Origin: Treponema sp.
GTDB taxonomy: Bacteria; Spirochaetota; Spirochaetia; Treponematales; Breznakiellaceae
Direction: 5' to 3'
Assembly (NCBI GenBank): GCA_031254315.1
Contig: JAIRUQ010000086.1
Span: forward strand, 1-48,448
Length of the DNA stretch: 48,448 nucleotides
Below are positions 1,175 through 46,119 of this stretch, piece by piece (position 1 is the first letter of the stretch; the number at the start of each line of letters is the position of its first letter). Under the pieces are notes generated by a model. It was not told where the DNA came from. It saw only the letters and a list, made by a program, of their open reading frames with translations, and searched no databases. A program made the position numbers and the translations under genes.

Positions 1175-1203
1175 TTTATAATTTTTTTATTTTATGTTAT
1201 AAT
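1175..1203 (+). promoter_or_regulatory. promoter predicting a leaderless transcript for the MetH-like gene
   Basis: TATAAT at 1198-1203 lies exactly 6 nt before the ATG at 1210. A weak -35 (TTTATA, 1175-1180) is 17 bp upstream. A start site about 7 nt after the -10 would coincide with the ATG, and no Shine-Dalgarno is present. Confidence 0.6.
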
Positions 1204-1209
1204 TCTATC

Positions 1210-2841
1210 ATGACTGTTCGGGAACAATTAAACTCTATCGCAAAAGAGCGAATTCTTATTCTTGATGGTGCGATGGGATCTATTATTCAATCTCTCCATC
1301 TGGACGAAAAAAGTTTTCGCGGCAGTCTTTTTGCAGAGCACCCAACGCCGCTGTCCGGCTATAACGATATTCTCTGTCTTACAAGACCGGGAGCGATAGG
1401 CGCGATTCATGACACTTACCTCTCTGCGGGCGCGGACATTATCGAAACTTGCAGTTTTAATTCCACTTCAATTTCACTTTCCGATTACGGTCTGGGCAGT
1501 TTGGCTTATGAAGTCAGCGCAGAGGCGGCTAAAGTTGCGCGTAAATCCGCAGATAAGTTTTCAGCTGAGGGTAAGAGGCGTTTTGTCGCCGGAAGCATGG
1601 GACCAACCGCAAAAGGCGCGAGTCTCTACCCGGATATAAATAATCCTTCAAAGCGCAGTATTATCTGGGACGAGCTTGAAATGGCTTACTATGACAATGC
1701 GCGCGGGCTTTTAGACGGCGGCGCGGATATTCTCCTTGTAGAAACAGTTTTTGATACACTAAACGCAAAAGCGGCTTTACGCGCAATTAGCCGTCTTCTG
1801 GAAGAAAGGCAGATTGATGTGCCAATAATGATCTCAGCCGCTATTTCAAACGAAAACGGAATGCTTCTTTCCGGTCAAAATCTGTCAGCTTTTTATGCTT
1901 CTGTGCAGTATGTAAATCCGTGGTCAATCGGGCTTAATTGTTCTTTTAACGCGCCCAAACTTCTTCCCCATGTGAAGCAGTTATCCGAAATCGCGCAGTG
2001 TCTTGTCAGTGCGTATCCGAACGCAGGTATGCCCAACAAATTCGGCATTTATGAAGAAATGCCGGATGCAATGTCAGCTAACATTGAACCGTTTTTTAAA
2101 GAGGGGCTGGTTAATATCGCAGGAGGCTGTTGCGGCTCTACTCCCGCCCACATAGCGGAGATTGCCGCTAAGGCAGTCAATTACAAACCTCGTCCGCTCC
2201 CCGGCAAATCCGGTTTTAAAGGACAAAAATCAACCTGTAATTATTTTTCCGGTCTCCAGCCGTTTACTGCCGAAAACAACATCGTCCGTATAGTAAATAA
2301 TGACGGCTCAGATATTACAAAAGAATTTCAGGAATCTCTTGCAAAAGGAGATTATGAGGACGCGGCGGATATTGCGCGCGATATACTCGAAAGCGACAGT
2401 GCGATCCTCAGTATCAAAACAGAAGATGAAAAAGCTATGGGCGCTTTTCTTGATTATGCCCTTATGAATCCGTACATCGCTAAAACGCCGTTTTTTATAA
2501 ATAGCTCAAACGAGGCTGTTCTTGTCGCCGCTCTTAAACGGCTTCAGGGGCGGTGTCTTGCCGGTCCTATAAATCTTAAGGACGGGGAGATTGATTTTTT
2601 GCGCAAAATACGGGTTATAGGCAGTTTTGGCGCGTCAGCGGCAGTTACGCCTGTTGACGAAAAGGGGCAGGCGGAAACCGATGAACAAAAGATCGAAATT
2701 GCGCGGAGAATTTACAGCCTTTTACAGAGGGAAAAATATCCGGCACAGAACTGTGTTTTTTATCAATTTATAACCACAGAAGGCGATTCATTACATTCAT
2801 TTGTACGGGATAATTGCCCTGATGTCTTTATTGCGTTATAA
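1210..2841 (+). CDS. truncated MetH-like homocysteine methyltransferase
   Basis: Residues 1-330 are a complete homocysteine S-methyltransferase domain: DGAMGS near the start and zinc ligands Cys244 (GLNCSF) and Cys307/Cys308 (GGCCGS), at nearly the E. coli MetH positions. Residues about 370-543 match the start of the pterin (methyl-THF) binding domain (FFINSS, INLKDGE, DEKGQAET) but stop before its conserved GVSN-type segment. The cobalamin and SAM-reactivation domains are absent; MetH is normally about 1,200 residues. It may be a decayed MetH, one half of a split enzyme, or a methyltransferase with another methyl donor. The stop codon overlaps the -10 box of the next gene. Confidence 0.8.
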   Translation: MTVREQLNSIAKERILILDGAMGSIIQSLHLDEKSFRGSLFAEHPTPLSGYNDILCLTRPGAIGAIHDTYLSAGADIIETCSFNSTSISLSDYGLGSLAYEVSAEAAKVARKSADKFSAEGKRRFVAGSMGPTAKGASLYPDINNPSKRSIIWDELEMAYYDNARGLLDGGADILLVETVFDTLNAKAALRAISRLLEERQIDVPIMISAAISNENGMLLSGQNLSAFYASVQYVNPWSIGLNCSFNAPKLLPHVKQLSEIAQCLVSAYPNAGMPNKFGIYEEMPDAMSANIEPFFKEGLVNIAGGCCGSTPAHIAEIAAKAVNYKPRPLPGKSGFKGQKSTCNYFSGLQPFTAENNIVRIVNNDGSDITKEFQESLAKGDYEDAADIARDILESDSAILSIKTEDEKAMGAFLDYALMNPYIAKTPFFINSSNEAVLVAALKRLQGRCLAGPINLKDGEIDFLRKIRVIGSFGASAAVTPVDEKGQAETDEQKIEIARRIYSLLQREKYPAQNCVFYQFITTEGDSLHSFVRDNCPDVFIAL

Positions 2842-2842
2842 T
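2814..2842 (+). promoter_or_regulatory. promoter predicting a leaderless transcript for the outer-membrane-like gene
   Basis: TTGCCC (2814-2819), a 17-bp spacer and TATAAT (2837-2842) lie 6 nt before the ATG at 2849. The -10 overlaps the stop codon of the MetH-like gene. There is no Shine-Dalgarno. Confidence 0.65.
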
Positions 2843-2848
2843 ATATAT

Positions 2849-3583
2849 ATGTTTAAATTTCGCGTGCGCCCAAAGTTCGCGGCTGTATTGCTTGCTTTTC
2901 TCTTTTCGTTCGCTCCTCTGAACATCGTTTTTGGAGAAGTTTTTCAATGGGCGATAACGGGCAATATTCTCTATTTTCCGTCTGATGACGGCGTTCAAGC
3001 TGATCCCGCCCCGATTCTTCCTTCGCTAGGCGGCGCTGTGTCATTGCAGATTTGGGGTCCCCTGCGAGTCGAATTAACCGAAGACATTTACATTGCGAAT
3101 TATGAATACATTCCCGCGCTTGGCTATCCTACGGCTTGCAATCCGGAAAATCGCTCCTCGCTTGTAATTGGCTTTGTTACCGCTATTTTGTTTTCGGGAA
3201 ATTTTCCCATTGGCAGTGATGATATAATCTGCCGCGTATATTTTGGTCCTGCTGTAGATATTCGCGTTGTTACTCTTGCTACCGGATTAAATTCTCATTT
3301 TGATTTTGGCGGCGATATTGAAACGGACGCTCAATTACAGACAGACGCTACTTCTGAATATTTTTGGAGTAATAACCGCTGGTTTATGCCTGTAGCCGGA
3401 GTCGGGATGGACTTTAGAATAAACGATAAATTCTTGCTTGGTTTTGATTTACGCGCATGGTTTCCCATATACAAACTTTGGACAGATACAGACCTTCCGG
3501 CGATTAACGGCTGGCGTTTTGGCGTTGGATTTCGTATAACACCACTCAGTAAAAATGTTAATCAGGAAGTACAGCAGAATTAG
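2849..3583 (+). CDS. outer-membrane beta-barrel-like protein
   Basis: The likely start is the ATG at 2849 (not the in-frame ATG at 2801), because a cleavable signal peptide (MFKFRVRPKF followed by AAVLLAFLFSF, cleavage near VFG) begins there and a TATAAT sits 6 nt upstream. The mature protein of about 220 residues alternates polar and hydrophobic residues with many aromatics, and has late segments such as VAGVGMDFRINDKFLLGFD and WRFGVGFRI typical of barrel strands. No enzymatic motif is visible. It ends 6 bp before radA, so the two are probably cotranscribed. Family is unknown; a small porin-like or surface protein is the best guess. Confidence 0.65.
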   Translation: MFKFRVRPKFAAVLLAFLFSFAPLNIVFGEVFQWAITGNILYFPSDDGVQADPAPILPSLGGAVSLQIWGPLRVELTEDIYIANYEYIPALGYPTACNPENRSSLVIGFVTAILFSGNFPIGSDDIICRVYFGPAVDIRVVTLATGLNSHFDFGGDIETDAQLQTDATSEYFWSNNRWFMPVAGVGMDFRINDKFLLGFDLRAWFPIYKLWTDTDLPAINGWRFGVGFRITPLSKNVNQEVQQN

Positions 3584-3589
3584 CCTCAA

Positions 3590-4975: not shown

Positions 4976-4991
4976 ATTCTTTTAGGAGTAC

Positions 4992-5020
4992 TTGACATTA
5001 ATTTGCTATTAGTTTATATT
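4992..5020 (+). promoter_or_regulatory. strong promoter for the RNA-binding protein leader
   Basis: A perfect TTGACA (4992-4997), a 17-bp spacer and TATATT (5015-5020) lie just after radA. The predicted start is near 5027, about 245 nt upstream of the RRM protein ATG. Confidence 0.7.
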
Positions 5021-5026
5021 CTTATT

Positions 5027-5555: not shown

Positions 5556-5559
5556 CAAA

Positions 5560-5591: not shown

Positions 5592-5601
5592 CAAGCTGAT
5601 T

Positions 5602-6474: not shown

Positions 6475-6475
6475 A

Positions 6476-7726
6476 TCATTCTCCCCATAATCTTATTAAT
6501 TCAATTATCACCTTGCAGGCGGCGCACATTTCTTCTACGCTGACCCATTCAAGGCGGCTATGAAAATTTCTGCCGCCTGTAAATATGTTCGGCGTTGGTA
6601 TGCCAAGCTCCGTAAGCCGTGAACCGTCCGTGCCGCCGCGTATAGGTTTTTGCCGCCATTCAATGCCGGTGTTCTGCGCCGCTTTTTTAAGGCGTTCAAG
6701 AACCTCAGGATTTTTATCAATCCCGGATTTCATATTATAGTATTGAGGCTCAGTTTTAACAATTACCCTTCCGCCCGGAAATTGGGCTTCTACCGTTTTC
6801 GCGAAAGTGTCAAGCGCGGCTATTCTGCGCTCCATTCCGCTGTTTTCAAAATCACGGAGAAATACTTCCAAGGAGGCTTCTTCCAGATTGCCGGAAATTT
6901 CCATCGGGCAGTAATAGCCGTAGTAACCGTCGGTTGCCTCGGGGCTTTCAGAACGTGGAAGAAGAGTAGCGAATATTGATGCCATGAGAGCGGCGTTGGC
7001 GAGAATTCCTCTCGCATGCCCGACATGGATCACTTTGCCGTGAAACTCGATGTCCGCCTTGTAAGCGTTAAAACACTCGCTTTCTATCTCTCCTTGCGGA
7101 CCGCCGTCTACTGTGTAGCAGGCAACGGAGCGAATTTCATTCATTGGAAATTCAGGCAGTCCCTTTCCGGTTTCTTCATCAGGGGTAAAAATAATTTCGA
7201 CAGGTCCATGCTCAATTTGCGGATTGGCGATAAGGTACTCAACAGCCGCCATGATTTCTGCGATGCCTGCCTTGTTGTCCGCTCCCAAGAGCGTTGTCCC
7301 GTCGCTGTGAATAATAGCCTTTCCCTTCTGCTCAGATAAAGCCGGCTCACTTTTCGGGTCAAGAAACAATCCGCCGTCAAGTTCAATTTTTTCGCCGTTA
7401 TAATTTTGAACAAACTGCGGCTTTACGTTTTGCCCCGAAACATCCTCTGCGGTATCAAGGTGAGCCAAAAACCCGATGCACGGTTTTTCCTGCCCTGCCT
7501 CGCAAAATCGCGGACTTGGCGGCAGATAGGCAATCACATAACAATGTTTGGTAAGATTTACTTCGTTTAAGCCAAGCCCTAATAACTCATTTTGTAATGA
7601 TTTTGCCAAATCCCACTGACCCGGCGTTGTAGGTGTTTGTTCAGCGTGACGGTTGCTTTCGGTATCATAGCGCACATAGTTCAAAAAACGCTGTACCAGC
7701 AGTTTTTCAATTTCCTGATTTTTCAT
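6476..7726 (-). CDS. pepT: peptidase T (tripeptide aminopeptidase)
   Basis: The 416-residue M20-family protein matches PepT in length and motifs: the first zinc site HLDTAEDVSG, the bridging aspartate in GADNKAG, the catalytic glutamate pair in TPDEETGKG, GGTDGSRLT, and the C-terminal FHSRLEW. It is a cytoplasmic di-zinc enzyme that releases the N-terminal residue of tripeptides. The ATG has no Shine-Dalgarno; a TATAAT lies exactly 6 nt upstream (7733-7738), so the mRNA is probably leaderless. It heads an operon with the acyltransferase. Confidence 0.95.
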   Translation of the reverse strand: MKNQEIEKLLVQRFLNYVRYDTESNRHAEQTPTTPGQWDLAKSLQNELLGLGLNEVNLTKHCYVIAYLPPSPRFCEAGQEKPCIGFLAHLDTAEDVSGQNVKPQFVQNYNGEKIELDGGLFLDPKSEPALSEQKGKAIIHSDGTTLLGADNKAGIAEIMAAVEYLIANPQIEHGPVEIIFTPDEETGKGLPEFPMNEIRSVACYTVDGGPQGEIESECFNAYKADIEFHGKVIHVGHARGILANAALMASIFATLLPRSESPEATDGYYGYYCPMEISGNLEEASLEVFLRDFENSGMERRIAALDTFAKTVEAQFPGGRVIVKTEPQYYNMKSGIDKNPEVLERLKKAAQNTGIEWRQKPIRGGTDGSRLTELGIPTPNIFTGGRNFHSRLEWVSVEEMCAACKVIIELIRLWGE

Positions 7727-7732
7727 ATTGAT

Positions 7733-7761
7733 ATTATAATCGAAAAATCCGCGCTTGACAT
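7733..7761 (-). promoter_or_regulatory. promoter predicting a leaderless pepT transcript
   Basis: On the minus strand, TATAAT (7738-7733) is 6 nt before the pepT ATG, with ATGTCA (7761-7756, four of six) 17 bp upstream. Confidence 0.6.
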
Positions 7762-7840: not shown

Positions 7841-7848
7841 ATTAAATT

Positions 7849-14018: not shown

Positions 14019-14033
14019 ATTTTACGCTATAAT
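14019..14033. promoter_or_regulatory. overlapping divergent -10 boxes for rsmI and the zinc-ribbon gene
   Basis: TATAAT (14028-14033, plus strand) is exactly 6 nt before the rsmI ATG at 14040. TAAAAT (14024-14019, minus strand) is 8 nt before the ATG at 14010. With 29 bp between the start codons, each -35 region must lie within the other gene. No Shine-Dalgarno is visible for rsmI. Confidence 0.6.
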
Positions 14034-14039
14034 TAAAAA

Positions 14040-14735
14040 ATGGCAACCCTCTATATAGTTGGCACTCCAATCGGGAATTTGGGCGATATTAGCTTTCGCG
14101 CCGTAGAAATATTGAAAAATGTCGATCTTGTGGCTTGCGAAGATACCCGCCGCACCCTAAAACTGCTCTCCCATTTGGGAATTCGCGTAAAAATGCTCTC
14201 CTGCCGCTCACAAAACGAAGAATTTGCGGCGGAAAAAGTGGTTTCTGCCCTAAATGCGGGGCAAACGGTGGCTTACGCAAGCGATGCCGGCACTCCCGCC
14301 CTGAGCGATCCCGGCTCAGCGCTTGCCAGAGCGGCAGTTCAAGCCGGACATGACGTTATTCCCATCCCAGGACCGTCAGCTTTCGCCGCGCTTTTGAGTG
14401 TGGCGGGCGGCAGGGATAAAACCGTCATTTTTGAGGGGTTTTTGTCCCCAAAACCGGGTCGCAGAAGGAGCCGCCTTCGAGAACTTATGGCAATGGACGC
14501 GGCTTGCGTTCTCTACGAGTCGCCTTTTCGAGTTCTCAAGCTCTTGGAAGACATTGCCGAAATAGATAAAGAGCGTTATATTTGTCTTGGACGTGAAATG
14601 ACCAAGATTCATGAGGAGTATTTGCGTGGTACTGCGGCGGAAATACTTGAAAATTTAGCCAAAAAAAAGGAACAAATTGGCGAATTTTCTTTGTATTTAT
14701 CTGGTAATTATTTCAATAAGCTGGTAAACTTATAG
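14040..14735 (+). CDS. rsmI: 16S rRNA 2'-O-ribose methyltransferase RsmI
   Basis: The 231-residue protein shows the RsmI (YraL) signatures: LYIVGTPIGNLGDI at the N-terminus, ACEDTRRT, ASDAGTPALSDPG, and PIPGPSA, followed by FEGFLSPK and GREMTK. This tetrapyrrole-methylase-fold enzyme methylates C1402 of 16S rRNA with SAM. Family members are usually about 280 residues; the C-terminal helical extension is missing here, but the catalytic domain looks complete. The 3' end of the gene carries the sigma-28 type promoter of flgM. Confidence 0.94.
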   Translation: MATLYIVGTPIGNLGDISFRAVEILKNVDLVACEDTRRTLKLLSHLGIRVKMLSCRSQNEEFAAEKVVSALNAGQTVAYASDAGTPALSDPGSALARAAVQAGHDVIPIPGPSAFAALLSVAGGRDKTVIFEGFLSPKPGRRRSRLRELMAMDAACVLYESPFRVLKLLEDIAEIDKERYICLGREMTKIHEEYLRGTAAEILENLAKKKEQIGEFSLYLSGNYFNKLVNL

Positions 14736-16385: not shown

Positions 16386-18035
16386 TCAATAACCGTCGGA
16401 CATTGCGCGGTTTTGGTCGCGCTGGTATAGTTCCTGATACACAAAACTGCGGTTTTTGAGTTTTTCTTTTACTTCTTTGGTAAAAGGCATGTGCCGCCAG
16501 AAAGTGCCTCTGACATCTTTATCGAGTTTTTGTATACCGTCCGCTTCTTTTGTCATCCACAGAATGTAATCGCGGATAAAATATTCTTTAATATCGCCTT
16601 TTAACTTTTGGGATTGGAACCACTGGTAGTAATGTCCTGTAAGACCTTCTTCCATCCAGTAAAAAGAAGCTTTTTCCTTTGCTACCTGCCAGCGTAAATC
16701 CGCGACAGCGGTAAGAAGGGCTAAATATAAATTTCTTGGGTACATGGGGACTATAATCCGTCCACGGCTTGTTGCGCGGTTGTAACGGTCAAACGGTTCC
16801 CAGCAAAAACCCATATCGCCGTAAGTGGGTATTAAAAGAACAAAAGGCGCGATGCGGTTTAATCTGTTTTTATAAATACGGCAAAAGGCTTCCGAGTCGA
16901 TACTTTCAATTCTCGCCATCATTGAAATTACGTTTTCCCGTGTACCTACTTCGTTTGGAACGCTGTGAAAATATTCGCTGGAGAGAACAGGGAAGTGGTT
17001 CCCCTGCCGCCCGATGGTCATTTTTGCCATTTGGCGGACTGTTTCACATTCGGTATCTATCGCTCCAATGTCTACTGTAACAGGACCGCCTTCGGAGGCA
17101 AGTTTGTCCGTTAAATGCTGAACGTCAGCCTCCGCGCTGATAAAATCCCTTATGTTTATTTCCATCTCATGATCGTTTTTCATCATTTGTTTAAGCAGGT
17201 TTTGAATTTCATTAATTGTCGCTTTTTGACTTTCGGAAAGGCAGTCGCTTACTTCGGTTAATTCCTGAAGAGGGGCGTGCTCAAAAACCGAGTTAAGTCT
17301 GGAGCGTATTATATTTTCAATTTCGTGCCGTTCTTTTTCTTTTGACTTTAATATCGACCTTGCGCCGTCAAATTTGCCCTGCGCTTTTTCCAGCAACTGC
17401 TGATACTTTGACTGTACGTTGCCTCTTGCGACTCGCACTTCATCCGTACTGGACGAGCGCATCTTGCCTGTTCCAATTCCATTGAACCATTCATCCAAAT
17501 AGTAAATTGACTGTTCAAGCGGATTACCGTCAACGATTTTGCTGAAAAAGTCTCTAAGGTCTGGGGTAATAAAAGTGGGGTGCAACAGCCCGAAACGGAG
17601 CAGGTATTTTTTAGGCGGCGGCAGTCTTCCCGTTGCCTTTCGGGCAATATTGAAAAGAAACTCCCAATAGGGGGAAATAAACTGCTGGCGGAAAACACTG
17701 CGATCCTTGGGGTCTTTGGCGGTAAGGTACTTTTGCAGAATACCGTGAACCCTTTGGGCAATCTCGCTTTCGTTGGAAAGGGCTGTTTTGTAATAATTGG
17801 GGTCGTTGAAAAAATTATGCCCCTTTTCTTCGAGGCGCTTGGTTACCGGCGGAAAGCCGGAAAGGGCAAGATCGACATCGCCGCCCGACGCACTTGAAAT
17901 ATCCGCGAAATCTTCTTTGTTTTTCTCGCCAAAAATATCGCTAAAATCAGGAAGAGGACCTTCACCGGAGCCAGCGGTTCCAAGCAAGGCGGCAATTTCA
18001 GGATCCATGTCCCCATGTGTAGAATTTCCAGCCAT
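16386..18035 (-). CDS. large conserved-looking cytoplasmic protein of unknown function
   Basis: The 549-residue protein has no signal peptide. Residues 1-60 are acidic and low-complexity (begins with DPEIAALLG near 11). A charged, probably coiled-coil stretch covers about 205-320. The C-terminal third is rich in Trp and Tyr (FCWEPFDRYNR, FYWMEEGLTGHYYQWFQS, IRDYILWMTKE) and is the best-ordered part. I do not recognise the family; it is probably spirochaete-specific. The promoter is clear: TTGACA-N17-TAATAT 6 nt before the ATG and no Shine-Dalgarno, so the mRNA is probably leaderless. Confidence 0.7.
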   Translation of the reverse strand: MAGNSTHGDMDPEIAALLGTAGSGEGPLPDFSDIFGEKNKEDFADISSASGGDVDLALSGFPPVTKRLEEKGHNFFNDPNYYKTALSNESEIAQRVHGILQKYLTAKDPKDRSVFRQQFISPYWEFLFNIARKATGRLPPPKKYLLRFGLLHPTFITPDLRDFFSKIVDGNPLEQSIYYLDEWFNGIGTGKMRSSSTDEVRVARGNVQSKYQQLLEKAQGKFDGARSILKSKEKERHEIENIIRSRLNSVFEHAPLQELTEVSDCLSESQKATINEIQNLLKQMMKNDHEMEINIRDFISAEADVQHLTDKLASEGGPVTVDIGAIDTECETVRQMAKMTIGRQGNHFPVLSSEYFHSVPNEVGTRENVISMMARIESIDSEAFCRIYKNRLNRIAPFVLLIPTYGDMGFCWEPFDRYNRATSRGRIIVPMYPRNLYLALLTAVADLRWQVAKEKASFYWMEEGLTGHYYQWFQSQKLKGDIKEYFIRDYILWMTKEADGIQKLDKDVRGTFWRHMPFTKEVKEKLKNRSFVYQELYQRDQNRAMSDGY

Positions 18036-18041
18036 AAATTC

Positions 18042-18070
18042 ATATTAAAATGTTTTTGCCCTATTGTCAA
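18042..18070 (-). promoter_or_regulatory. promoter predicting a leaderless transcript for the 549-residue protein
   Basis: On the minus strand, a perfect TTGACA (18070-18065), a 17-bp spacer and TAATAT (18047-18042) are followed by 6 nt and the ATG at 18035. Confidence 0.75.
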
Positions 18071-18951: not shown

Positions 18952-20729
18952 TTCAGCGCGTCTAAATCAATTTCCCCTGCGGTGCATGGGACGGTAACGC
19001 CCCAGTTTTCCAGCACTTCAGGATGAAGTTCGCCGAAGACGCCTATTTCCTTTTTGTTGAAAATAATTACAGCCGCCCGCCCGGGAATAAACCGGGGGTC
19101 GGAGGATTCTTCTACATCGTACTCACGGGAGAGGTAATAAAACAGCGTTTGCAATTCCGCGGCGGCTGAGTTAAAGTTGGCGTCCGTTCCCGCGTGAAGA
19201 AATCCGGCGAATTGACGGGTGGAACTTCTGTTGTTTTCTTCGTCGTTCAAATACGCTACTTTTCCCACTTCAAAAATTTTGTGAGGATAAACAGACCTTC
19301 CTGAGATGGACTCGCTTGCCATGAGCGAAGCCACAACCGAGTCGCGTACATATTCATAATTTTCTGTCATTGGGTTGAAGATACGGATTATCTTATCGCC
19401 TTTGCCCCGCATATTTTCTACAAGGTCTTTTTTTGAGCCAAGGTAGTTATAGATCATCTCCTGATAGCCAAGTCCGATTAGCAGTTCTTTAACCTGTCTG
19501 CTAAAAAGTGTAATCGGCAACAGCCGCCCGATTGTAGAATCGGAGGGACGCTCCGGCTTAAAGGAGCCAAGAGAGCGGCCGATCATTATATCTTCGACGA
19601 CATCCGCCGCATGAAGGAAATCGTTGCGGTATTCGGGTGGATATGCCCGCACGCCTTCTGTCTCTCCTGCTTTTTCCTGACCGCGCTCGGCGGCTTTTGC
19701 CTTCTCGGCTTTTACGCCCATGCGAGAAAGAGCCTTGATACATTCATCCGCGCTTAATTTCTCTCCAAGAAATTTCTCCACCCGCGAGAGCGAACAAAAA
19801 ACAGGCTCCTGAAAATAATACGGGAAAATTATGTTTCTGCTTGTTTTGCTTTTGCCTGCGGAAGTTTGATCGAATGATGTATCAAACTCGTATTCAACTT
19901 CGACAGGTTCAATCTTAAAACCGTTATCTGCGAGATCGCAGGCGACAATAGAAGCGGCAAGTGTGACAGACGGCAAATCCGTTCCTGTAAGTTCGATAAA
20001 AACTTCGCTGTCGCCGACCTGCACTGCGCCAAGATCGTTGGAGTTAATGATGGGCGGATAGGACAAAACCGTCCCCTGCGAATCTGTCAACAGCGGATGG
20101 ATTGGCTCATGCTCCTGAATAAAAGCGTATTCTTTGCCCTTTGGGTGCTGTTTGAGGATTTCCCTTAACGTGAGCGGAACATCCCACTGGAGCGGCACAA
20201 AGGAAACGGAATCAGGGTCAACGCCTTTGTAAATAATTGGCCAGTTTACAAGCGAAATACGGTAAAGCCCCATTGATATGCTTCTCCGTTTCCGCCCGAA
20301 ATTCCAGGCAAGTTTTTCTTGTGTTTGGATCATATCTCGAAGCATTGGGTCTGATATTTTTTTGCCGCTCGCGATAAACCCCGAAAGGTACGGTCTTACG
20401 TTTTTAACACTCGCCTGTACTTTTACCTTTCTGCTTGTCTTTTTTATATCGCCGGGTCGTGAAAAAAAATCATATTGAGGGCTCTTTCCGCTGTCGTATA
20501 TCCGTAGCTGACGGGCGCATCCCGCTGTCCCCCAGAGGTCGGGGCGGTTTGTGTCATTCAACTCAATCTTGAGGGTTCTTTCCTCTTTGGGAAGGCTTTT
20601 GTCGCTGTCCTCGTCCAACTCCGCTTTGGCGCAGACAAGGGCAGATTCAAATTCGTCCCTGCTTTTCCAGCCCCCGCTGTGGTTTGCGAGTGTATAAAAA
20701 ACCTGCTCATTTACTTCGATTTTTGGCAT
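18948..20729 (-). CDS. pheT: phenylalanyl-tRNA synthetase beta chain, archaeal/eukaryotic type
   Basis: The 593-residue protein matches the short PheT of spirochaetes and archaea rather than the 800-residue bacterial form, with no N-terminal EMAP-like tRNA-binding domain. Visible parts are the B3/B4 core (IELTGTDLPSVTLAASIVACDLAD), the B5 domain (around YFQEPVFCSLSRVEKFLGE) and a catalytic-like domain (FNPMTENYEYVRDSVVASLM). It pairs with PheS to charge tRNA-Phe. The ATG at 20729 is preferred over an upstream TTG, because TATAAT lies exactly 6 nt before it. Confidence 0.93.
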   Translation of the reverse strand: MPKIEVNEQVFYTLANHSGGWKSRDEFESALVCAKAELDEDSDKSLPKEERTLKIELNDTNRPDLWGTAGCARQLRIYDSGKSPQYDFFSRPGDIKKTSRKVKVQASVKNVRPYLSGFIASGKKISDPMLRDMIQTQEKLAWNFGRKRRSISMGLYRISLVNWPIIYKGVDPDSVSFVPLQWDVPLTLREILKQHPKGKEYAFIQEHEPIHPLLTDSQGTVLSYPPIINSNDLGAVQVGDSEVFIELTGTDLPSVTLAASIVACDLADNGFKIEPVEVEYEFDTSFDQTSAGKSKTSRNIIFPYYFQEPVFCSLSRVEKFLGEKLSADECIKALSRMGVKAEKAKAAERGQEKAGETEGVRAYPPEYRNDFLHAADVVEDIMIGRSLGSFKPERPSDSTIGRLLPITLFSRQVKELLIGLGYQEMIYNYLGSKKDLVENMRGKGDKIIRIFNPMTENYEYVRDSVVASLMASESISGRSVYPHKIFEVGKVAYLNDEENNRSSTRQFAGFLHAGTDANFNSAAAELQTLFYYLSREYDVEESSDPRFIPGRAAVIIFNKKEIGVFGELHPEVLENWGVTVPCTAGEIDLDALN

Positions 20730-20735
20730 GTGCAA

Positions 20736-20764
20736 ATTATATTTATTTTTGCCGAAAGTGGCAA
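20736..20764 (-). promoter_or_regulatory. promoter predicting a leaderless pheT transcript
   Basis: On the minus strand TTGCCA (20764-20759), a 17-bp spacer and TATAAT (20741-20736) are followed by 6 nt and the ATG at 20729. Confidence 0.75.
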
Positions 20765-32225: not shown

Positions 32226-33875
32226 TCAGCTTGCTTTTGCCCTTCTCAACCGCACATTTTCGATGTCATGGCTGAAAAGCTCACGGAGATCGTTCAAATC
32301 CAGCGCCATCAAAGCCATTCGGTCAATGCCGATGCCCCACGCCGCGACAGGCACATTCACGCCAAGACTCGCGGTTACTTCGGGGCGGAAAATACCGGAG
32401 CCGCCAAGCTCGAACCAGCCGAGTACCGGGTGTTTAATATGCACTTCGACCGACGGTTCCGTAAACGGAAAATAACCCGGAACATATTTTACTTCTTTTG
32501 CACCTGCGACTTCGCGGGCAAACATTTCCAACATTCCCAAGAGCGTGCGAAGGTTGACATCTTCACCTAACACAATGCCTTCAGTTTGATAAAAGTCCGG
32601 CAGGTGGGTAGCGTCTACGCGGTCATAGCGGAAACAGCGCACAATGCCGAAGTATTTGCCGGGAATTTTCGCTTTTGGCAAAGTTTTTGCGGAAAGCACA
32701 GTCCCCTGAGAGCGCAAAATGAGCCGCTTTGTAAAATCACGATCAAAACCGTAATTCCAGCCTCTGCTTCCCGTTGTTCCGCCGTTCTCGTGCGCAGACG
32801 CAACATTGGAGAGCCACGGCTCATCAATGGACTTTGCGCGCGCAATTCCGTCTTTGGAAGAATTTTCCGCACCTGCAATACTGTAAGCGTCGTGAATGTC
32901 ACGCGCGGAATGAAACTGCGGCATAAAAAGAGCGTCCGAATTCCAAAACTCGGTTTCAACTAATGGACCGTCAAATTCTTCAAAGCCCAGAGACGAAAGT
33001 TTATCTTTTACATCTTCAAGAAATTTCGCGTAAGGGTTACTGCGTCCCGGAGTAAGCCTAGTCGGCGGCGTTTTTACGTTATACGATCTGAAAGCCTTGC
33101 CTTTCCAGCTTCCGTTTTCGAGCATTTCGGGCGTAATTGTTCCGATTTCATCCCCTGTGATTCCTGCCGCTTTGAGCGCGTCTGCGGCGGCTTGCGCAGG
33201 GACAGAACCGTCCTCTGTAACGGTAAACCCAAAGACGACGGTCTCCCTGTCAACCTGACGAAACGGCGCGTCTGCGGCTCCGCGCTTTTTGGCATGATTT
33301 GCCATGATAGCTTTTTCTTCATCATTGAGCGACGCTTCGGGGAGCATTCCGTCTGTTGCCGCCACTTTTCTTAACAGCTCACGGATAGTTGTAAAACGCT
33401 TATACGCCGGATTTTTTTCAGGGTTAGAGAGATATTCAAGGGGGAACGACAAAGTTACATTTTTGTCATCGTCCATTTTAAGAACGCCCATTTTTGAGAG
33501 ACTGCCAAACGCGCTCCCGATGTCCTTATTTTCCATGTTCAAAGCCCGCGCAATATCTGGCAGGCGTTGAAACGCGGCTTTTTGTTCAAGCCCTTTGCGT
33601 ATTAATTCAAGGATTCTCTCTTCCGGGCTTCCCTTTTCCTTCCATTCGCTACCCAAGCCTGTTATCTCGTAAAAAACAGCGGCTTCCCTGCGAATCTCGC
33701 TGACAAGCCCCTTGCCTGCCAGCCAAGACAACGCCTGATTACCGTTGCCGGGTTTGAACCCCAGTTCCTGTTCAACCTTTTCGATAGTGAGTTCATCGCC
33801 CTTTTTGTAGGCAAGAAGAATTCGCACTTCCAGAGGATGCAGATTTTTTACAATGTTTTTTATATCTATTGACAT
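32226..33875 (-). CDS. pheS: phenylalanyl-tRNA synthetase alpha chain, archaeal/eukaryotic type
   Basis: The 549-residue protein has the N-terminal winged-helix repeats of archaeal/eukaryotic PheS (LHPLEVRILLAYKKGDELT, then QALSWLAGKGLV), absent from the ~340-residue bacterial form. The class II catalytic core follows, with the FDGPLVETEFWN region, motif 2 and motif 3 GIGIDRMALMALDLNDLRELFSHDIE. It matches the type of pheT at 18948-20729, which lies 11.5 kb away rather than adjacent. The ATG has a weak SD-like GGGG stretch. Confidence 0.95.
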   Translation of the reverse strand: MSIDIKNIVKNLHPLEVRILLAYKKGDELTIEKVEQELGFKPGNGNQALSWLAGKGLVSEIRREAAVFYEITGLGSEWKEKGSPEERILELIRKGLEQKAAFQRLPDIARALNMENKDIGSAFGSLSKMGVLKMDDDKNVTLSFPLEYLSNPEKNPAYKRFTTIRELLRKVAATDGMLPEASLNDEEKAIMANHAKKRGAADAPFRQVDRETVVFGFTVTEDGSVPAQAAADALKAAGITGDEIGTITPEMLENGSWKGKAFRSYNVKTPPTRLTPGRSNPYAKFLEDVKDKLSSLGFEEFDGPLVETEFWNSDALFMPQFHSARDIHDAYSIAGAENSSKDGIARAKSIDEPWLSNVASAHENGGTTGSRGWNYGFDRDFTKRLILRSQGTVLSAKTLPKAKIPGKYFGIVRCFRYDRVDATHLPDFYQTEGIVLGEDVNLRTLLGMLEMFAREVAGAKEVKYVPGYFPFTEPSVEVHIKHPVLGWFELGGSGIFRPEVTASLGVNVPVAAWGIGIDRMALMALDLNDLRELFSHDIENVRLRRAKAS

Positions 33876-34037: not shown

Positions 34038-34058
34038 TACACCTTTGTATAGTATAAT
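34030..34058 (+). promoter_or_regulatory. promoter of the Bro-N gene, with -10 six nt before a leader ORF
   Basis: TATAAT (34053-34058) is followed by exactly 6 nt and an ATG at 34065. TTGCAC (34030-34035) is a weak -35 with a 17-bp spacer. The downstream Bro-N gene starts at 34094. Confidence 0.6.
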
Positions 34059-34064
34059 TATCCT

Positions 34065-34097
34065 ATGGTCTCAAATAGGGCTGAAGGACAAATATGA
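34065..34097 (+). CDS. possible 10-codon leader peptide upstream of the Bro-N gene
   Basis: The ATG predicted to be at the mRNA 5' end opens a 10-codon frame (MVSNRAEGQI) whose TGA overlaps the Bro-N ATG as ATGA. The second start has an AAGGA-like SD (34084-34088 region). This arrangement suggests leaderless initiation followed by coupled reinitiation. It may also be chance; only the promoter spacing argues for it. Confidence 0.4.
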   Translation: MVSNRAEGQI

Positions 34098-36949: not shown

Positions 36950-37750
36950 CTACTTTATAGGCGTTCCATTAATTGAAAGTATGTTTTCAGTTATTTCTGC
37001 ACTGCCACTACTTTGATAACCTTCAACCTTAAACGCTACTTCGTACATTTTTCCCATGGTCATCCCTAAGTTTTCCCATGCCTCGAAATGCTTTGAAACA
37101 GAGATTGTTCCGCTTGTACGCTTTGTTCTGCGAACACTGAAATACTGCTGAAAAGTAGAGTTGTTGCCCTCAATGGAAGGTGCATTTGACCTTGTAACTT
37201 GATAAATATCATAAACAGCGCCGTCAATAGTAAAATTACCTTTGAGTGTTCCTGCTATTCCCGGTTTATAATTGCCGTGGCTTTCAACAATGTAAAATTC
37301 TACCAATGGGCTTTTTGTCCAGCCATAAACGCTCAGATAACTGACATCGCCGCTCGTTATATTATATACAGGCGCGTTGTATTTTATGGAGATAGTTCCG
37401 ATTTGTTGATGTGTCTGTGTCGAACCAAACTTTCTGCCTGAACGGAACAAAACATTTAAGATGCCGCTCCAACTGCACTTGAAAGTTCCGCCTCCGCCGA
37501 CCCCAATAGTCATGCTTGCGTTTCCCTGTTTGTTTTGGTTCCAAAACTCCCAATCGTAAACGCCGGATTTCCCTGTAACTTGTTCCGAACCTGGATTGGA
37601 AATGACTCGACCAGTGAAGCCCTCGAAGTCTCCGCTACTATCACCGGTGTCCCTTTCTTCGAGAGGGCAAGACACCACCAAAAACCCGATTACCAAAATA
37701 ATGGCTATTACGCAAAGCCTGCGACTCTGCTTTTTAATCGTATTTATCAT
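36950..37750 (-). CDS. GH11 endo-1,4-beta-xylanase lipoprotein
   Basis: The 266-residue protein has a lipoprotein signal (VIAIILVIGFLVV, lipobox VVSC, Cys28) and one GH11 beta-jelly-roll. The nucleophile is Glu151 in PLVEFYIVE and the acid/base is Glu243 in VEGYQSSGSA; YDWEFWNQ and YLSVYGW are also family marks. It cleaves internal xylan bonds and would be tethered to a membrane, facing outward if exported. There is no Shine-Dalgarno; the promoter predicts a leaderless mRNA. It stands near GH5 and GH39 genes (about 4 and 5.6 kb away), although the chaperone operon lies between. Confidence 0.93.
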   Translation of the reverse strand: MINTIKKQSRRLCVIAIILVIGFLVVSCPLEERDTGDSSGDFEGFTGRVISNPGSEQVTGKSGVYDWEFWNQNKQGNASMTIGVGGGGTFKCSWSGILNVLFRSGRKFGSTQTHQQIGTISIKYNAPVYNITSGDVSYLSVYGWTKSPLVEFYIVESHGNYKPGIAGTLKGNFTIDGAVYDIYQVTRSNAPSIEGNNSTFQQYFSVRRTKRTSGTISVSKHFEAWENLGMTMGKMYEVAFKVEGYQSSGSAEITENILSINGTPIK

Positions 37751-37756
37751 ATATCA

Positions 37757-37785
37757 ATAATAACTAGAAATACGGAAATTATCAA
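37757..37785 (-). promoter_or_regulatory. promoter predicting a leaderless xylanase transcript
   Basis: On the minus strand TTGATA (37785-37780), a 17-bp spacer and TATTAT (37762-37757) are followed by 6 nt and the ATG at 37750. It is back-to-back with the grpE promoter. Confidence 0.7.
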
Positions 37786-37794
37786 CTTTTATTC

Positions 37795-37823
37795 TTGACC
37801 TAAACATCAATTTTATGTATTTT
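37795..37823 (+). promoter_or_regulatory. candidate promoter of grpE-dnaK-dnaJ
   Basis: TTGACC (37795-37800), a 17-bp spacer and TATTTT (37818-37823) start a leader of about 55 nt. A TATAAT at 37860 is a second candidate without a good -35. I see no CIRCE (HrcA) operator between here and grpE. Confidence 0.45.
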
Positions 37824-37884
37824 ATAGGGTAAGGTGAGGATTTTTCCCACAAAAATTAGTATAATATTATATTGAGATGTAGAA

Positions 37885-38502: not shown

Positions 38503-38527
38503 TTTATTATGGAAAGGAGATAAAAAC

Positions 38528-40462: not shown

Positions 40463-41587
40463 ATGGCAAAACGGGATTATTACGAGGTTCTTGGAGTTGA
40501 GAAAAGCGCCTCGAAAGATGATATAAAAAAGGCGTATCGCAAACTCGCTATTCAATACCACCCTGACAAGAATCCCGGTAACAAACAAGCCGAGGAAAAA
40601 TTTAAGGAAGCAACCGAAGCTTACGAGATTCTCGGTGATGATCAGAAAAAAGCGGCCTACGATCAGTATGGTTTTGCCGGTGTTGAAGGCATGGCAGGAC
40701 AGGGAGATTTCTCAAGCGTTTTCCGCGGCTTTGAAGACATCTTCGGCGATGGAGGCTTTAGCAGTATTTTTGAAAGTTTCTTCGGCGGCAGCGGCGGTTT
40801 TCGCAGGAGTTCTTCAGGCGGCGTAAGACAAGGAGCCAATCTCCGCTACGATATCGAGATTCCGTTTAAAGACGCTGTCTTCGGCACAAAAGTTGAAATT
40901 CAATATTCACATAACGAATCCTGCGAAACCTGCAAAGGTTCCGGGTCGGCGGACGGAGCAAGTAAAAAGCTCTGCCCAACCTGCCGGGGCTCCGGTCAAG
41001 TGCGGCACAGTCAGGGATTTTTCTCGGTAGCTACACCCTGCCACAGCTGTAACGGGGAAGGCTATATTGTTGAAAAACCCTGTAATGACTGCGGCGGCTC
41101 CGGCACTCAAAAAAAACGTCAAAAAATAATGGTTACCATCCCGGCCGGCGTTGAGAACGGAAAACGCGTAGTCATTCCCAGACAGGGAGACACAGGTCCA
41201 AACGGCGGACCGCCCGGTGATTTGTACGTATTTATCAGAATTAAACGCCATGAGTATTTTGAACGGCAGGGACTTGATCTTTACTGCGCCGTTCCCATTT
41301 CGATCAGCCAGGCAGCCCTCGGTGCGGATATTCGCGTAACGTCACTCGACAATAAAACAATAAAGGTTAAAGTGCCAGTCGGCATTCAGAACGGAAAAAT
41401 GCTCCGTATCCGCGATGAAGGAGTCCCCTCAGGAAGCCAGCGCGGCAGTCTTTATATAAAACTCATGGTACAGATACCGGAAAAACTTTCCCGCAGGGGA
41501 AAAGAACTTCTCGAAGAACTGGCAAAAACCGAAGGACAAAACGACAGCCCAAAACCAATCCCGCTCTCTCAGCTTTCTGATGTGTAA
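40463..41587 (+). CDS. dnaJ: co-chaperone DnaJ (Hsp40)
   Basis: The 374-residue type I DnaJ starts directly after the dnaK stop with no gap. It has a J domain ([23 protein letters not shown] near residue 33), a G/F-rich region (about 75-115), four zinc-finger repeats ([32 protein letters not shown]) and two C-terminal substrate domains. It stimulates DnaK ATPase and delivers clients. Confidence 0.98.
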
Positions 41588-41615
41588 GTGAAATAAAGAA
41601 TTATTTTGCTTTTAA

Positions 41616-41645
41616 TTGACAGATCAAAAAGATATCTCTCATACT
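41616..41645 (+). promoter_or_regulatory. candidate promoter of the GH5 gene
   Basis: A perfect TTGACA (41616-41621), an 18-bp spacer and CATACT (41640-41645) are followed by 6 nt and the ATG at 41652. No Shine-Dalgarno is seen. Confidence 0.5.
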
Positions 41646-41651
41646 ATATAA

Positions 41652-43307
41652 ATGAATAGAATATTACTTTTCCTTATTACAACAATTACCTTGATGACTA
41701 CCTGCACTTCGGTAAATTATTATATATATGGAGATCCGGTTGATTCGCCGCTTCCTTTTTCCCGGGGAGTAAATTTTTCCGCCTGGTTTGATGCGTCTTC
41801 TCCGCGTACAATACCTTTCACAAGATACTCAGAACAGGACTTTATAGACGTAAAAAGCATTGGCGTCGATGTGATTCGATTACCAATTTATATGCACAAT
41901 ATGACAAGAGGAGATCCCTATTATACGCTTGACCCGCTTTTTTTGGGATTTCTGGATCAAGTTGTAGATTGGGCGGAAAAACACAGGATATATATAATTT
42001 TGGATAATCATTCATTTGACCCTGTGGCTCCTACCGAGCCCGATATTGATAAAATCATAATCCCAGTCTGGACGCAGATGGCTCAACGTTATAAAAACCG
42101 AAGCAGTTATGTGCTATATGAGATTCTAAACGAACCGCATGATATTGATGCGAAATTATGGGGCAGCATTCAAGGCAGAGTAATCGAAGCAATTCGCGCC
42201 GCCGGTGACAGACACAGTATTATTGTCGGAGGAGTTTGGTATAATTCCATTGATGAACTCTTTAATTTACCGTCATATCCTTATAATAATATTATATATA
42301 CCTTTCATTTTTATGATCCGTATCTCTTTACCCATCAGGGAGAAACATGGGGAGCCCCGCCGAATTTAAGAACGCTTAAAGGTATGCCCTTCCCTTATAA
42401 CGCTAAAAGGATGCCGGCAGTTCCGGCGGATCTAAGGGGAACATGGATAGAAAGTTCAATTAGAGATTCTTACAGGAATGACGCAACAGTTGAAGCTCTG
42501 GCAAGACAGCTTGATAAGGCTGTACAGTTTTCGCAGGAACGCGGCGGCGTTCCGCTCTTTTGCGGTGAATTCGGCGTTTTTATTCCCAACAGCCTGCATG
42601 AAGACCGGTTACGCTGGTATGAGGCTGTTACAAAATTGCTTGCCGAGCGTGGTATTGCCCGCACAAGCTGGGATTATTTTGGCGGATTTGGCGTTTTTAA
42701 AAATGGAATAAGCGGTTCCTTTAACAGTGACCTTGACATTGACATTATTAAAGCTATGGGACTCTCGCCGTCTCCGCAAAAACCGGCGGAAAAGATTCGT
42801 GAAGCTTTTGCCATATTTGATAATTACCCGTCATCGTTAGCGGAATTTGGGCAATATGGCTGTGATATTGATTTGTATTATCAAAACGGGAGAAAATACG
42901 CAATAAGTTATGGAAACGCAAATCTATATGGCGCTTTTTTCTTTAACTTCAGACGTGATATTGATTGGGAATTTTTTCAATCCAATGGTTATGCTCTTAC
43001 TTTTTCGGTAAAGGCTGATAAACCCGCGCATTTTGACGTGCGGTTTGTCAACCATGAAGACGCTGCTACAATTCCCTGGCGAATATTTACGCCTGTAGAT
43101 ATTGAGGCGGACGGACAATGGCACACATTGCGGATTCCGTTGGCATCGATGAGGGAACAGGGCGCATGGATCAGCATGACCGAGAAGTGGCTCAACCCTG
43201 AAGGAAAATTCTCATGGGATAATGTTGTTTCTCTTGTCTTTGTAGCCGAAGCGCATGATCTCAACGGAATAACCATACTATTCGATACCATCAAAATTGA
43301 ACATTAA
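41652..43307 (+). CDS. GH5-type glycanase lipoprotein with C-terminal beta domain
   Basis: The 551-residue protein has a lipoprotein signal (lipobox MTTC, Cys18). The (beta/alpha)8 GH5 domain spans about 35-375, with RGVNFSAWFD, IRLPIYMH, DNHS, the acid/base Glu161 in YEILNEPHD, HFYDPYLFTHQG, and the nucleophile Glu306 in FCGEFG. A C-terminal beta domain (about 385-551) resembles a carbohydrate-binding module. GH5 enzymes cut cellulose, mannan or mixed-linkage glucans; the exact substrate is unknown. It is probably surface-anchored and precedes the GH39 gene by 44 bp. Confidence 0.9.
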   Translation: MNRILLFLITTITLMTTCTSVNYYIYGDPVDSPLPFSRGVNFSAWFDASSPRTIPFTRYSEQDFIDVKSIGVDVIRLPIYMHNMTRGDPYYTLDPLFLGFLDQVVDWAEKHRIYIILDNHSFDPVAPTEPDIDKIIIPVWTQMAQRYKNRSSYVLYEILNEPHDIDAKLWGSIQGRVIEAIRAAGDRHSIIVGGVWYNSIDELFNLPSYPYNNIIYTFHFYDPYLFTHQGETWGAPPNLRTLKGMPFPYNAKRMPAVPADLRGTWIESSIRDSYRNDATVEALARQLDKAVQFSQERGGVPLFCGEFGVFIPNSLHEDRLRWYEAVTKLLAERGIARTSWDYFGGFGVFKNGISGSFNSDLDIDIIKAMGLSPSPQKPAEKIREAFAIFDNYPSSLAEFGQYGCDIDLYYQNGRKYAISYGNANLYGAFFFNFRRDIDWEFFQSNGYALTFSVKADKPAHFDVRFVNHEDAATIPWRIFTPVDIEADGQWHTLRIPLASMREQGAWISMTEKWLNPEGKFSWDNVVSLVFVAEAHDLNGITILFDTIKIEH

Positions 43308-43339
43308 CCGGATAAAAACATTTACTTCATTCTATATGA

Positions 43340-43345
43340 TATAAT
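43340..43345 (+). promoter_or_regulatory. -10 box predicting a leaderless GH39 transcript
   Basis: TATAAT lies exactly 6 nt before the ATG at 43352. No good -35 is at 16-18 bp, and no Shine-Dalgarno is present. Confidence 0.55.
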
Positions 43346-43351
43346 CCTTCC

Positions 43352-44887
43352 ATGCAGAAAAAAACATACGCATTAACAGACGGCGTTAGCATACCATTCA
43401 ACAATAACACCTGCGTTTGTATTGGTACCGGAAGAATGGGGCTTGCGCTGCACAAGGAATATTTTGAACAGCTTAAATTAGTACAGGAGCAGATTGGTTT
43501 TCGCTGGATACGCGGGCATGGTCTCTTTAACGAAGACATGGCTATTTATCAGGAGTATAAAACACCAAACGGCGAAATTGTACCGGAGTATAATTTTACA
43601 TATTTGGATTTTGTGATGGACAGTTATCTGTCACTTGGCATACGCCCGTTTATTGAACTGGGATTTATGCCATGGGCAATAGCGTCGGGAGAAAAGTCTG
43701 TATTTTACTGGCGTGGAAATGTTACACCGCCAAAAGATCACACGCAGTGGAACGCGCTTGTCAGGGCGACGCTCACGCACCTGATTGAAAGATACGGTGC
43801 GCAAGAAGTTACGTCATGGCCGATCGAAGTCTGGAATGAACCGAATTTGAATTCTTTTTGGGCAGGAGCAAACAGAGAAGCATACTTTAAACTTTTCCAC
43901 GAAACAATTCTTGCGGTAAAATCGGTGGATGACCGCTTCCGTGTCGGAGGACCGGCAATTTGCGGTGTAGACGATGTGTCATGGCTTAAGGATTTCCTCA
44001 ATTTCTGCCGTGATGAAAAACTGCCACTTGATTTTGTTACGCGCCATTTGTACGATATTTCAACTCCTGAAACTGACGGGCGGTACGGCTATCCAAAACT
44101 CAACCCGATTTCCCGCGCTTGTGCGGAAACAGAAAGGTCGCGAAAAATAATCGATTCTTATCAAGAGTTCCGCGGCATGGAAATGCACGTAACGGAGTTC
44201 AACACATCTTATTCGCCGCATACGCCAATTCATGACACAAACTTAAATGCCGCGTATATCGCATACCTGCTTTCACGGCTTGGAGACGACTGTGTGTCAT
44301 ACTCATACTGGACGTTTGGCGACATATTTGAAGAAACAGGCGTGCCGTTTACGCCGTTTCATGGCGGATTTGGATTAATCGCCAACGGAAAAATACGTAA
44401 ACCGACATTCTGGGCGTTTAAATTTTTCAAGGATCTCGGAGAGGGCGTATGCGTTCATCGTTCTGATGAAGCGATTGTTCTCAAAAAAGACAATGGCTCA
44501 TACTGCGGTGTCGCATGGAATATCGCGACTTTCGAATCCGGTGATGAATTATCACTGAGCTTTACCCTTCCTGATAACGCTTTTAGCGGACGGGAATATT
44601 GCGTCATCATCAAGACTGTTGATGAAACTGTTTGTAATCCGTTAAAAAACTGGCATGATATGGGAGAACCCGCGAATCCGTCTCGCAAACAAATAGACTT
44701 GTTACGCTCTGCCGCACAGCCGCTCGTTACCACAAAACGGGGAACGGGCTCGCCTGAAATAGTACTTACTCTTGCGCATAACGCCGTAGTATATTTTGAA
44801 GCGTTTCCCGCTGAAATTAACAGCGACAGAGGATTTAGCTACGAGCGCGCGGTAAACGTGGAGTTTGCGGATGAAAAGGTTTTATAA
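43352..44887 (+). CDS. GH39 beta-xylosidase-like enzyme
   Basis: The 511-residue protein has no signal peptide, so it is cytoplasmic. It matches GH39 beta-xylosidases: RWIRGHGLFNEDM, IELGFMPWAIASG, the acid/base Glu163 in EVWNEPNLNSFW and the nucleophile Glu282 in VTEFNTSYSP, at nearly the positions of the Thermoanaerobacterium enzyme (160 and 277). It removes xylose from short xylo-oligosaccharides, which fits imported products of the GH11 xylanase. The gene has its own TATAAT 6 nt before the ATG. Confidence 0.92.
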   Translation: MQKKTYALTDGVSIPFNNNTCVCIGTGRMGLALHKEYFEQLKLVQEQIGFRWIRGHGLFNEDMAIYQEYKTPNGEIVPEYNFTYLDFVMDSYLSLGIRPFIELGFMPWAIASGEKSVFYWRGNVTPPKDHTQWNALVRATLTHLIERYGAQEVTSWPIEVWNEPNLNSFWAGANREAYFKLFHETILAVKSVDDRFRVGGPAICGVDDVSWLKDFLNFCRDEKLPLDFVTRHLYDISTPETDGRYGYPKLNPISRACAETERSRKIIDSYQEFRGMEMHVTEFNTSYSPHTPIHDTNLNAAYIAYLLSRLGDDCVSYSYWTFGDIFEETGVPFTPFHGGFGLIANGKIRKPTFWAFKFFKDLGEGVCVHRSDEAIVLKKDNGSYCGVAWNIATFESGDELSLSFTLPDNAFSGREYCVIIKTVDETVCNPLKNWHDMGEPANPSRKQIDLLRSAAQPLVTTKRGTGSPEIVLTLAHNAVVYFEAFPAEINSDRGFSYERAVNVEFADEKVL

Positions 44888-44895
44888 TTTCATCT

Positions 44896-45309: not shown

Positions 45310-45353
45310 AAATTCTCCTTAAATAATGATTTTGATAGTATTTTACTACCAAT

Positions 45354-45370
45354 TACGGTTAATAACCGTA
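45354..45370. repeat. 17-bp palindrome in the divergent lipoprotein intergenic region
   Basis: TACGGTTA-A-TAACCGTA is a perfect inverted repeat with a single central base. It lies between the divergent lipoprotein genes (44896-45309 and 45547-46119) in a 237-bp AT-rich gap that otherwise holds no gene. An operator role is possible. Confidence 0.5.
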
Positions 45371-45511
45371 TAATTTGCCCATATTAATAAAAATACGATA
45401 TTTTTTTATCAAGTCAAGTAAAATATGGTATATGTTTTTATTTCTAATTAAGATCATTCCAGCAATAAATTGCACATAATTAATAGATCAGCAAACTTAA
45501 CCACAAATATA

Positions 45512-45540
45512 TTGAGAAAAGTCAGAAGAAAAGTTAAAAT
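45512..45540 (+). promoter_or_regulatory. promoter predicting a leaderless lipoprotein transcript
   Basis: TTGAGA (45512-45517), a 17-bp spacer and TAAAAT (45535-45540) are followed by 6 nt and the ATG at 45547. Confidence 0.7.
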
Positions 45541-45546
45541 AAAAAC

Positions 45547-46119
45547 ATGAAGAGAATATACTTAACCTGCGCTGTTATATTGATTTTTACAAGCTGTTCT
45601 CCCAAAAAAAACAATGTCGCGACCGGATATGAAGACTACTATTTTGGAATGACTATTAATCAGATTTATGAGAAACAGCCTTTTTTAAGAATTGTTGACG
45701 AAATAAATGTTGATGACGATTATATCGATCTAGGGATAAATGGAAACCAATTTTACGCTATGACCCAATTTCTATACGATGAAGAGTTAGTACCTGAAAT
45801 AAAACACCCCGCTATAGCATTACAAAAAAACATTACCGTTTATCTTGGAGACAGATGGCCAGGATTTTTTATACAAAACAGTAAATTAATTGGTATAGGC
45901 TTTGCCAGAGAAGGAGAAGTACTGCAAGAATTAATAAATGTGTATGGGGAAGGCTTTTTATACGGAGAACAAATAGTTTGGAACGACAGCGGCAGACTCA
46001 TAGTATGGTTAAAAATGGAGAGCAACCCTATAGAAATGGTGTTTTATTTTGATGAGCAATGGGTCAGGGATATCTCAAATGAGATAATGAAAAAACACAG
46101 AGAAGCCCGTTCGCCCTAA
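45547..46119 (+). CDS. lipoprotein of unknown function
   Basis: The 190-residue protein has a short lipoprotein signal (YLTCAVILIF, lipobox FTSC, Cys17). The mature part begins GYEDYYFGMTINQIYEKQPFL, a pattern seen in proteins with a PASTA/BamE-like start, and is otherwise mixed alpha/beta with acidic patches. I do not recognise a family. There is no Shine-Dalgarno, consistent with the leaderless promoter. Confidence 0.65.
   Translation: MKRIYLTCAVILIFTSCSPKKNNVATGYEDYYFGMTINQIYEKQPFLRIVDEINVDDDYIDLGINGNQFYAMTQFLYDEELVPEIKHPAIALQKNITVYLGDRWPGFFIQNSKLIGIGFAREGEVLQELINVYGEGFLYGEQIVWNDSGRLIVWLKMESNPIEMVFYFDEQWVRDISNEIMKKHREARSP

Follow-up and report, generated by a model that had tools for sequence, protein, structure and literature searches.

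In a 48,448-nucleotide stretch of a Treponema sp. genome (assembly GCA_031254315.1, positions 1 to 48,448 of contig JAIRUQ010000086.1; hereafter the window, meaning the whole stretch that was analysed), a set of genes carries a TATAAT-type -10 box that ends exactly 6 nucleotides (nt) before the start codon, and the same arrangement recurs in a wider sample of this genome and in orthologues from its relatives. We put at roughly 85% the probability that these are real leaderless-type promoters, a minority mode found mostly at promoter-proximal genes beside a mode based on Shine-Dalgarno (SD) sequences. The promoter elements, their spacing, the missing SD and the conservation are read directly from the DNA. 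What we infer from them is how such genes would be expressed: housekeeping-type promoters would be sited so that transcription begins on the first base of the start codon (A in ATG, G in GTG), RNA polymerase binding the -35 and the -10 box (the latter sometimes extended by TGn) and starting 7 nt past the -10, and ribosomes would then translate, with no SD, an mRNA that opens directly with the start codon.

A spike at 6 nt in this genome

The assembly holding the window comprises 3.10 Mb in 127 contigs, of which we sampled 448 kb (the window and twenty 20-kb stretches) containing 279 genes with 60 nt upstream. Genes were called by codon usage only, promoter and SD terms being absent from the caller, and the minus-strand gene at 37750 was absent from its output and hence from all gene-centred counts. 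A near-consensus -10 box (TA and a final T fixed, no more than one mismatch in between; the expectation is the mean at distances 12-44) stands at 6 nt in 22 of these 279 genes, where 3.3 are expected (P = 1e-11), with only 4 genes at 5 nt and 2 at 7 nt. The genome-wide spike that the initial annotation had set as a test is thus present in the sample. It is seen with the window excluded (15/249 genes vs 2.97 expected, P = 6e-7) and with strict TATAAT, both in the sample (13 genes vs 0.73 expected) and in the window itself (6/34 called genes vs 0.09 expected, P = 4e-10). By start codon, it is found among ATG candidates (23/345 vs 3.79 expected), and GTG and TTG starts of this genome generally have none (GTG 0/67, with 0.58 expected; TTG 1/162). 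A further TAnnnT peak, at 11 nt, was set aside as being partly the TATGnTATAAT extended -10.

A leave-one-out matrix, with decoy distances as the reference, puts the excess at 15.8-19.5 of the 279 genes, or about 6-7%. The window is richer than the rest of the sample (7/34 vs 15/245 genes with a box, P = 0.0096), so that the initial annotation, which called such starts widespread, had looked at a locally enriched stretch; that word is too strong, and the putative leaderless starts are a minority mode, at about 6-7% of genes, beside the SD-based one. Raw genome-wide counts serve as background only, diluted as they are by intragenic occurrences: TATAATN6ATG occurs 122 times regardless of gene context, against a mean of 68.7 for each distance from 7 to 16 and 45 for the reversed pattern, a control that inflates the excess relative to that of neighbouring distances.

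Promoter-like character of the boxed genes

Genes with a box at 6 nt have better -35 matches (3.64 vs 2.93 of 6 positions, P = 0.001), more often carry TGn before the box (7/22 vs 22/257 other genes, P = 0.004) and show an over-representation of G at -14. An SD-like 4-mer at -20..-4 occurs in 2/22 of them and in 113/257 other genes (P = 0.001), a difference that is partly mechanical, as a box at -12..-7 fills part of the SD window. Where a same-strand neighbour lies less than 30 nt upstream, a box is found in only 1/89 genes (by its coordinates the ambiguous site 2849 discussed below), as against 9/56 divergent genes; judging from this arrangement, boxed genes appear to be mostly the first of their transcription unit. 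Neither a box nor an SD 4-mer is present in 144/279 genes. No exact match to the anti-SD sequence of the 16S 3' end, GGATCACCTCCTT, was found in the assembly, from which the 16S end may be missing.

Conservation among orthologues

The strongest support for leaderless starts comes from orthologues. Five window genes were compared with 58 genomes of the same family, in which they were matched in 53, 49, 49, 49 and 44 genomes, and the best 30 loci of each were used, the window locus included. For rsmI (14040), TAnnnT lies 5-7 nt before the start in 24/30 loci (16 at 6 nt, 4 at 5 and 4 at 7), with a decoy of about 0.5 per distance. In a second family of the same order, where 57 of 60 genomes had a match and the best 30 loci were used, the figure is 29/30, with 25/30 at exactly 6 nt and SD-like 4-mers in 5 of the 29 boxed loci; when these 29 are aligned on the -10 alone, a TTG appears 17 bp upstream (28, 27 and 26 of 29 for its three positions). 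Orthologues of the metH-like gene at 1210 have TAnnnT at 5-7 nt in 23/29 cases, none of these 23 with an SD. The dnaK control (28 spirochaete loci out of 80) gave the opposite picture, with a box in 0/28 and an SD in 28/28.

As a separate observation on the metH-like gene (1210-2841), many relatives have their best match in an open frame of about 1,200-1,500 amino acids (aa), as for full MetH.

Other genomes sampled

By DnaK, the nearest relatives of this genome are metagenome-assembled genomes (Treponema sp. or Spirochaetaceae) at 85-89% identity, and we assume that it belongs to the family of the termite-gut treponemes; the labels Treponemataceae, Borrelia-like and Brachyspira-like for the compared groups are likewise our assumption. 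Sampled by the same method, other genomes of the family have a box at 6 nt in 12/384 genes (2.8 expected, P = 3e-5) and the second family in 13/367 (5.2 expected, P = 0.003). The spike is greatest in the present genome and lower in its relatives. Samples of 40 kb each from f11 and G056 were too small (0/32 genes with a box in each), and the Leptospira-like sample, intended as a positive control, consisted of 40 kb of G029, a 3,993-base contig of G040 being unused and the family assignment being a guess.

Several observations, besides the mechanical share of the SD difference, weigh against the leaderless reading. The Borrelia-like sample has no box in 146 genes (2.4 expected), the f15 sample has 2/97 (3.6 expected), and in G019, taken as a single genome, the spike is not significant (5 vs 2.67, P = 0.13). 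Counted regardless of gene context, some same-family genomes lack any excess, examples (from 116 genomes for which no full tally was made) being G192, with 27 vs 30.5 per distance, and G237, with 20 vs 26.3. The -35 of rsmI is weak in the same family (TTG 19, 11 and 9 of 24), and orthologues of the gene at 18035 keep the distance poorly (6/30 at 5-7 nt). Those of the M20 peptidase (7726) have TAnnnT at 5-7 nt in 4/27 cases; a wider pattern, nATA[AC]T or TA[TC]nAT, stands at exactly 6 nt in 17/27 (decoy 0.11), a support that hangs on a pattern widened post hoc after CATACT, the hexamer of site 41652, had been noticed at 6 nt in several of them.

The listed sites

Eleven sites were listed in the initial annotation (Table 1), which counted at least ten starts with TATAAT or a variant, 6 nt and ATG. 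Ten such boxes are indeed there, seven with exact TATAAT at -12..-7 and three with one or two mismatches (37750, 45547 and 18035), but one of them precedes no normal gene start (34065) and one start is ambiguous (2849). The absence of an SD was borne out (SD-like 4-mers in 0/11 sites), as were the four named -35 boxes at 17 bp. The site given as probable, 41652, keeps the 6 nt and has a perfect TTGACA at 18 bp, its -10 hexamer being CATACT rather than TATAAT.

The start at 2849 is ambiguous because the previous gene ends 7 nt before it and other in-frame starts (TTG, ATG and TTG) lie at -6, -9 and -16 codons. Among the ten sites besides 34065, upstream in-frame alternatives exist only there and at 20729; the remaining 8 have none, and at 14040 a stop stands 2 codons upstream. 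The ATG at 34065 was rejected as a normal gene start, since it opens a frame of only 10 codons, ending in a stop that overlaps the start codon of a BRO-N gene, an ATG at 34094 preceded by an SD-like GAAGGAC. This box is more likely a promoter giving the BRO-N gene a 29-nt leader. Conservation of the mini-frame was considered and discarded: it has matches in 3/58 genomes (its own, G153 and G256), and in neither relative is a TATAAT-N6-ATG mini-frame visible.

Table 1. Listed sites with a -10-like hexamer 6 nt before ATG, and the pheS gene
Feature	Position	Strand	Gene or remark
TATAAT-N6-ATG at 1210	1198..1212	+	543-aa protein, homocysteine S-methyltransferase domain
TATAAT-N6-ATG at 2849	2837..2851	+	244-aa protein without Pfam match; ambiguous start
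TATAAT-N6-ATG at 7726	7724..7738	-	M20-type peptidase
TATAAT-N6-ATG at 14040	14028..14042	+	RsmI-like methyltransferase (TP_methylase)
TTGACA-N17-TAATAT-N6-ATG at 18035	18033..18070	-	549-aa protein without Pfam match
TTGCCA-N17-TATAAT-N6-ATG at 20729	20727..20764	-	pheT, detached from pheS
TATAAT-N6-ATG at 34065	34053..34096	+	10-codon frame overlapping BRO-N gene start at 34094
TTGATA-N17-TATTAT-N6-ATG at 37750	37748..37785	-	GH11 family protein
TATAAT-N6-ATG at 43352	43340..43354	+	GH39 family protein; -35 weak
TTGAGA-N17-TAAAAT-N6-ATG at 45547	45512..45549	+	190-aa protein without Pfam match
TTGACA-N18-CATACT-N6-ATG at 41652	41616..41654	+	GH5 family protein; probable
pheS, not adjoining pheT	32226..33875	-	Pfam tRNA-synt_2d

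A conserved GTG start at rsmI

The start codon of rsmI is GTG in 22/30 same-family and 28/30 second-family orthologues, or 50/60 together (loci L106-L135 and L338-L367), where called GTG starts make up 0-12.5% of genes per group (the caller disfavours non-ATG starts). For 24 of the 50, the stretch between the upstream stop and the GTG contains no further in-frame ATG, GTG or TTG, and a conserved LYI..TPIGNL motif comes directly after the start. The window, its same-genus relative and E. coli have ATG.

Initiation factor IF3 is regulated through its own AUU start. That rsmI keeps a predicted leaderless arrangement and GTG in two families could, by analogy, reflect a comparable autoregulatory loop, in which C1402 methylation would set initiation on the gene's own leaderless GUG message; we consider this doubtful. 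The P-site nucleotide C1402 of 16S rRNA is methylated by RsmI and RsmH, and this modification has been linked to the selection of start codons (PMC5053481, in the part available to us). As far as the accessible text of the respective papers goes, loss of this methylation increases initiation at AUU (PMC13317604) and at non-canonical starts (PMC7600485), and initiation at GUG and UUG is impaired in an RsmH mutant (PMC13317604). Because these published directions of the effect disagree, autoregulation is put forward only as a proposal.

Switching between box and SD at pheT

The 29 usable pheT orthologues (locus L150 is cut by a contig end and was left out) comprise 13 with a box and no SD and 13 with an SD and no box; the three with neither carry, 9 nt ahead of the ATG, a TAGNAT box. 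In the 6 orthologues where pheS ends 10-29 nt upstream, pheT has an SD in all 6, and in the two where the spacing is 45 and 57 nt both are boxed; several of the rest have flanks too short for pheS to be placed. In the window itself, where pheT is boxed, the two genes (pheT at 18948-20729, pheS at 32226-33875) are separated by about 11 kb. It looks as if a single gene had switched repeatedly between SD-led and predicted leaderless starts as its operon context changed. The gene following pheS in the window codes for a DUF4954 protein.

Alternative readings

The leaderless reading of the initial annotation is, as far as sequence can tell, well supported by the 6-nt spike, the near-exclusion of SDs, the -35 and TGn elements, the promoter-proximal position and the conservation among orthologues. 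Three other readings were weighed. It is possible, though less likely than not, that some of these genes have very short leaders rather than being strictly leaderless, with transcription starting 1-4 nt before the start codon. The distances among orthologues, which span 5-9 nt (5-7 for rsmI, 9 for the three TAGNAT boxes of pheT), are consistent with this, whereas the peak of the genome sample and that of rsmI in the second family, both at exactly 6 nt, speak against it.

The boxes might also reflect no more than the A/T richness of translation starts, the promoters lying further upstream and initiation being SD-independent, which we think improbable. The large share of genes with neither a box nor an SD 4-mer does point to another SD-independent mode or to weak SDs, but A/T richness would be expected to produce neither a spike at a single distance nor the TGn and -35 elements, nor a -35 conserved at 17 bp, and the Borrelia-like and f15 samples, more A/T-rich, lack the spike. 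Also improbable is that the -10 boxes belong to ordinary promoters and are followed by an ATG by chance, translation beginning downstream at an SD: this holds for 34065, but at rsmI it would remove the LYI..TPIGNL motif, and it sits badly with the 24 GTG-start orthologues lacking another in-frame start and with the 8/10 listed sites that have no upstream in-frame alternative.

Comparison with known leaderless genes

In the accessible part of a survey of bacterial genomes (PMC3160421), leaderless genes are an established class marked by a TANNNT, interpreted as a -10 box, whose first T lies about 12 bp ahead of the start. Actinobacteria and Deinococcus-Thermus have the box at the same position as here, with means of 19.2% and 39.4% of genes rather than about 6-7%, and the similarity of the present box to TATAAT matches the survey's account of medium- and low-GC groups. 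For Spirochaetes it predicts leaderless genes in 6/18 genomes, with a mean of 3.9%, a signal similar in kind and size to ours; the orthologue conservation and SD switching described above have no counterpart in the part of it available to us. In Leptospira interrogans, of the same phylum, differential RNA sequencing gave about 440 leaderless mRNAs that begin on the start codon or no more than 10 nt from it (PMC5243855, accessible part). Those starts were measured, whereas ours are read from sequence, and a general promoter motif is stated there not to have been found, in contrast to the clear TATAAT-type box of the present genome. The available text of a ribosome paper calls leaderless transcripts frequent in Borrelia (PMC10618245), with which the empty Borrelia-like sample contrasts. 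The remark in the initial annotation that such mRNAs are not known as a general feature of treponemes stands in so far as our literature search, which left most subscription journals outside, brought up no article dealing with leaderless mRNA in treponemes; for spirochaetes as a phylum the three sources just cited speak against novelty.

On the leaderless reading, the group around Treponema would join those bacteria in which leaderless genes form a substantial set, and in annotation starts could here be called from the -10 box. The switching at pheT would make the cost and use of leaderless starts amenable to comparative tests, and the conserved GTG of rsmI, whose product acts on the choice of start codon, would offer a concrete test of feedback through ribosome modification.

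Neighbouring genes

The window contains two related BRO-N-type genes (34094-34945 and 20895-21365; 52% over 116 residues), the first with a Pfam Bro-N match. A homologue in G256 carries TATACT-N6-ATG at its start. The GH11, GH5 and GH39 genes are clustered in 36950-44887, each with a -10-like hexamer 6 nt before its ATG, and the cluster suggests the use of plant fibre.

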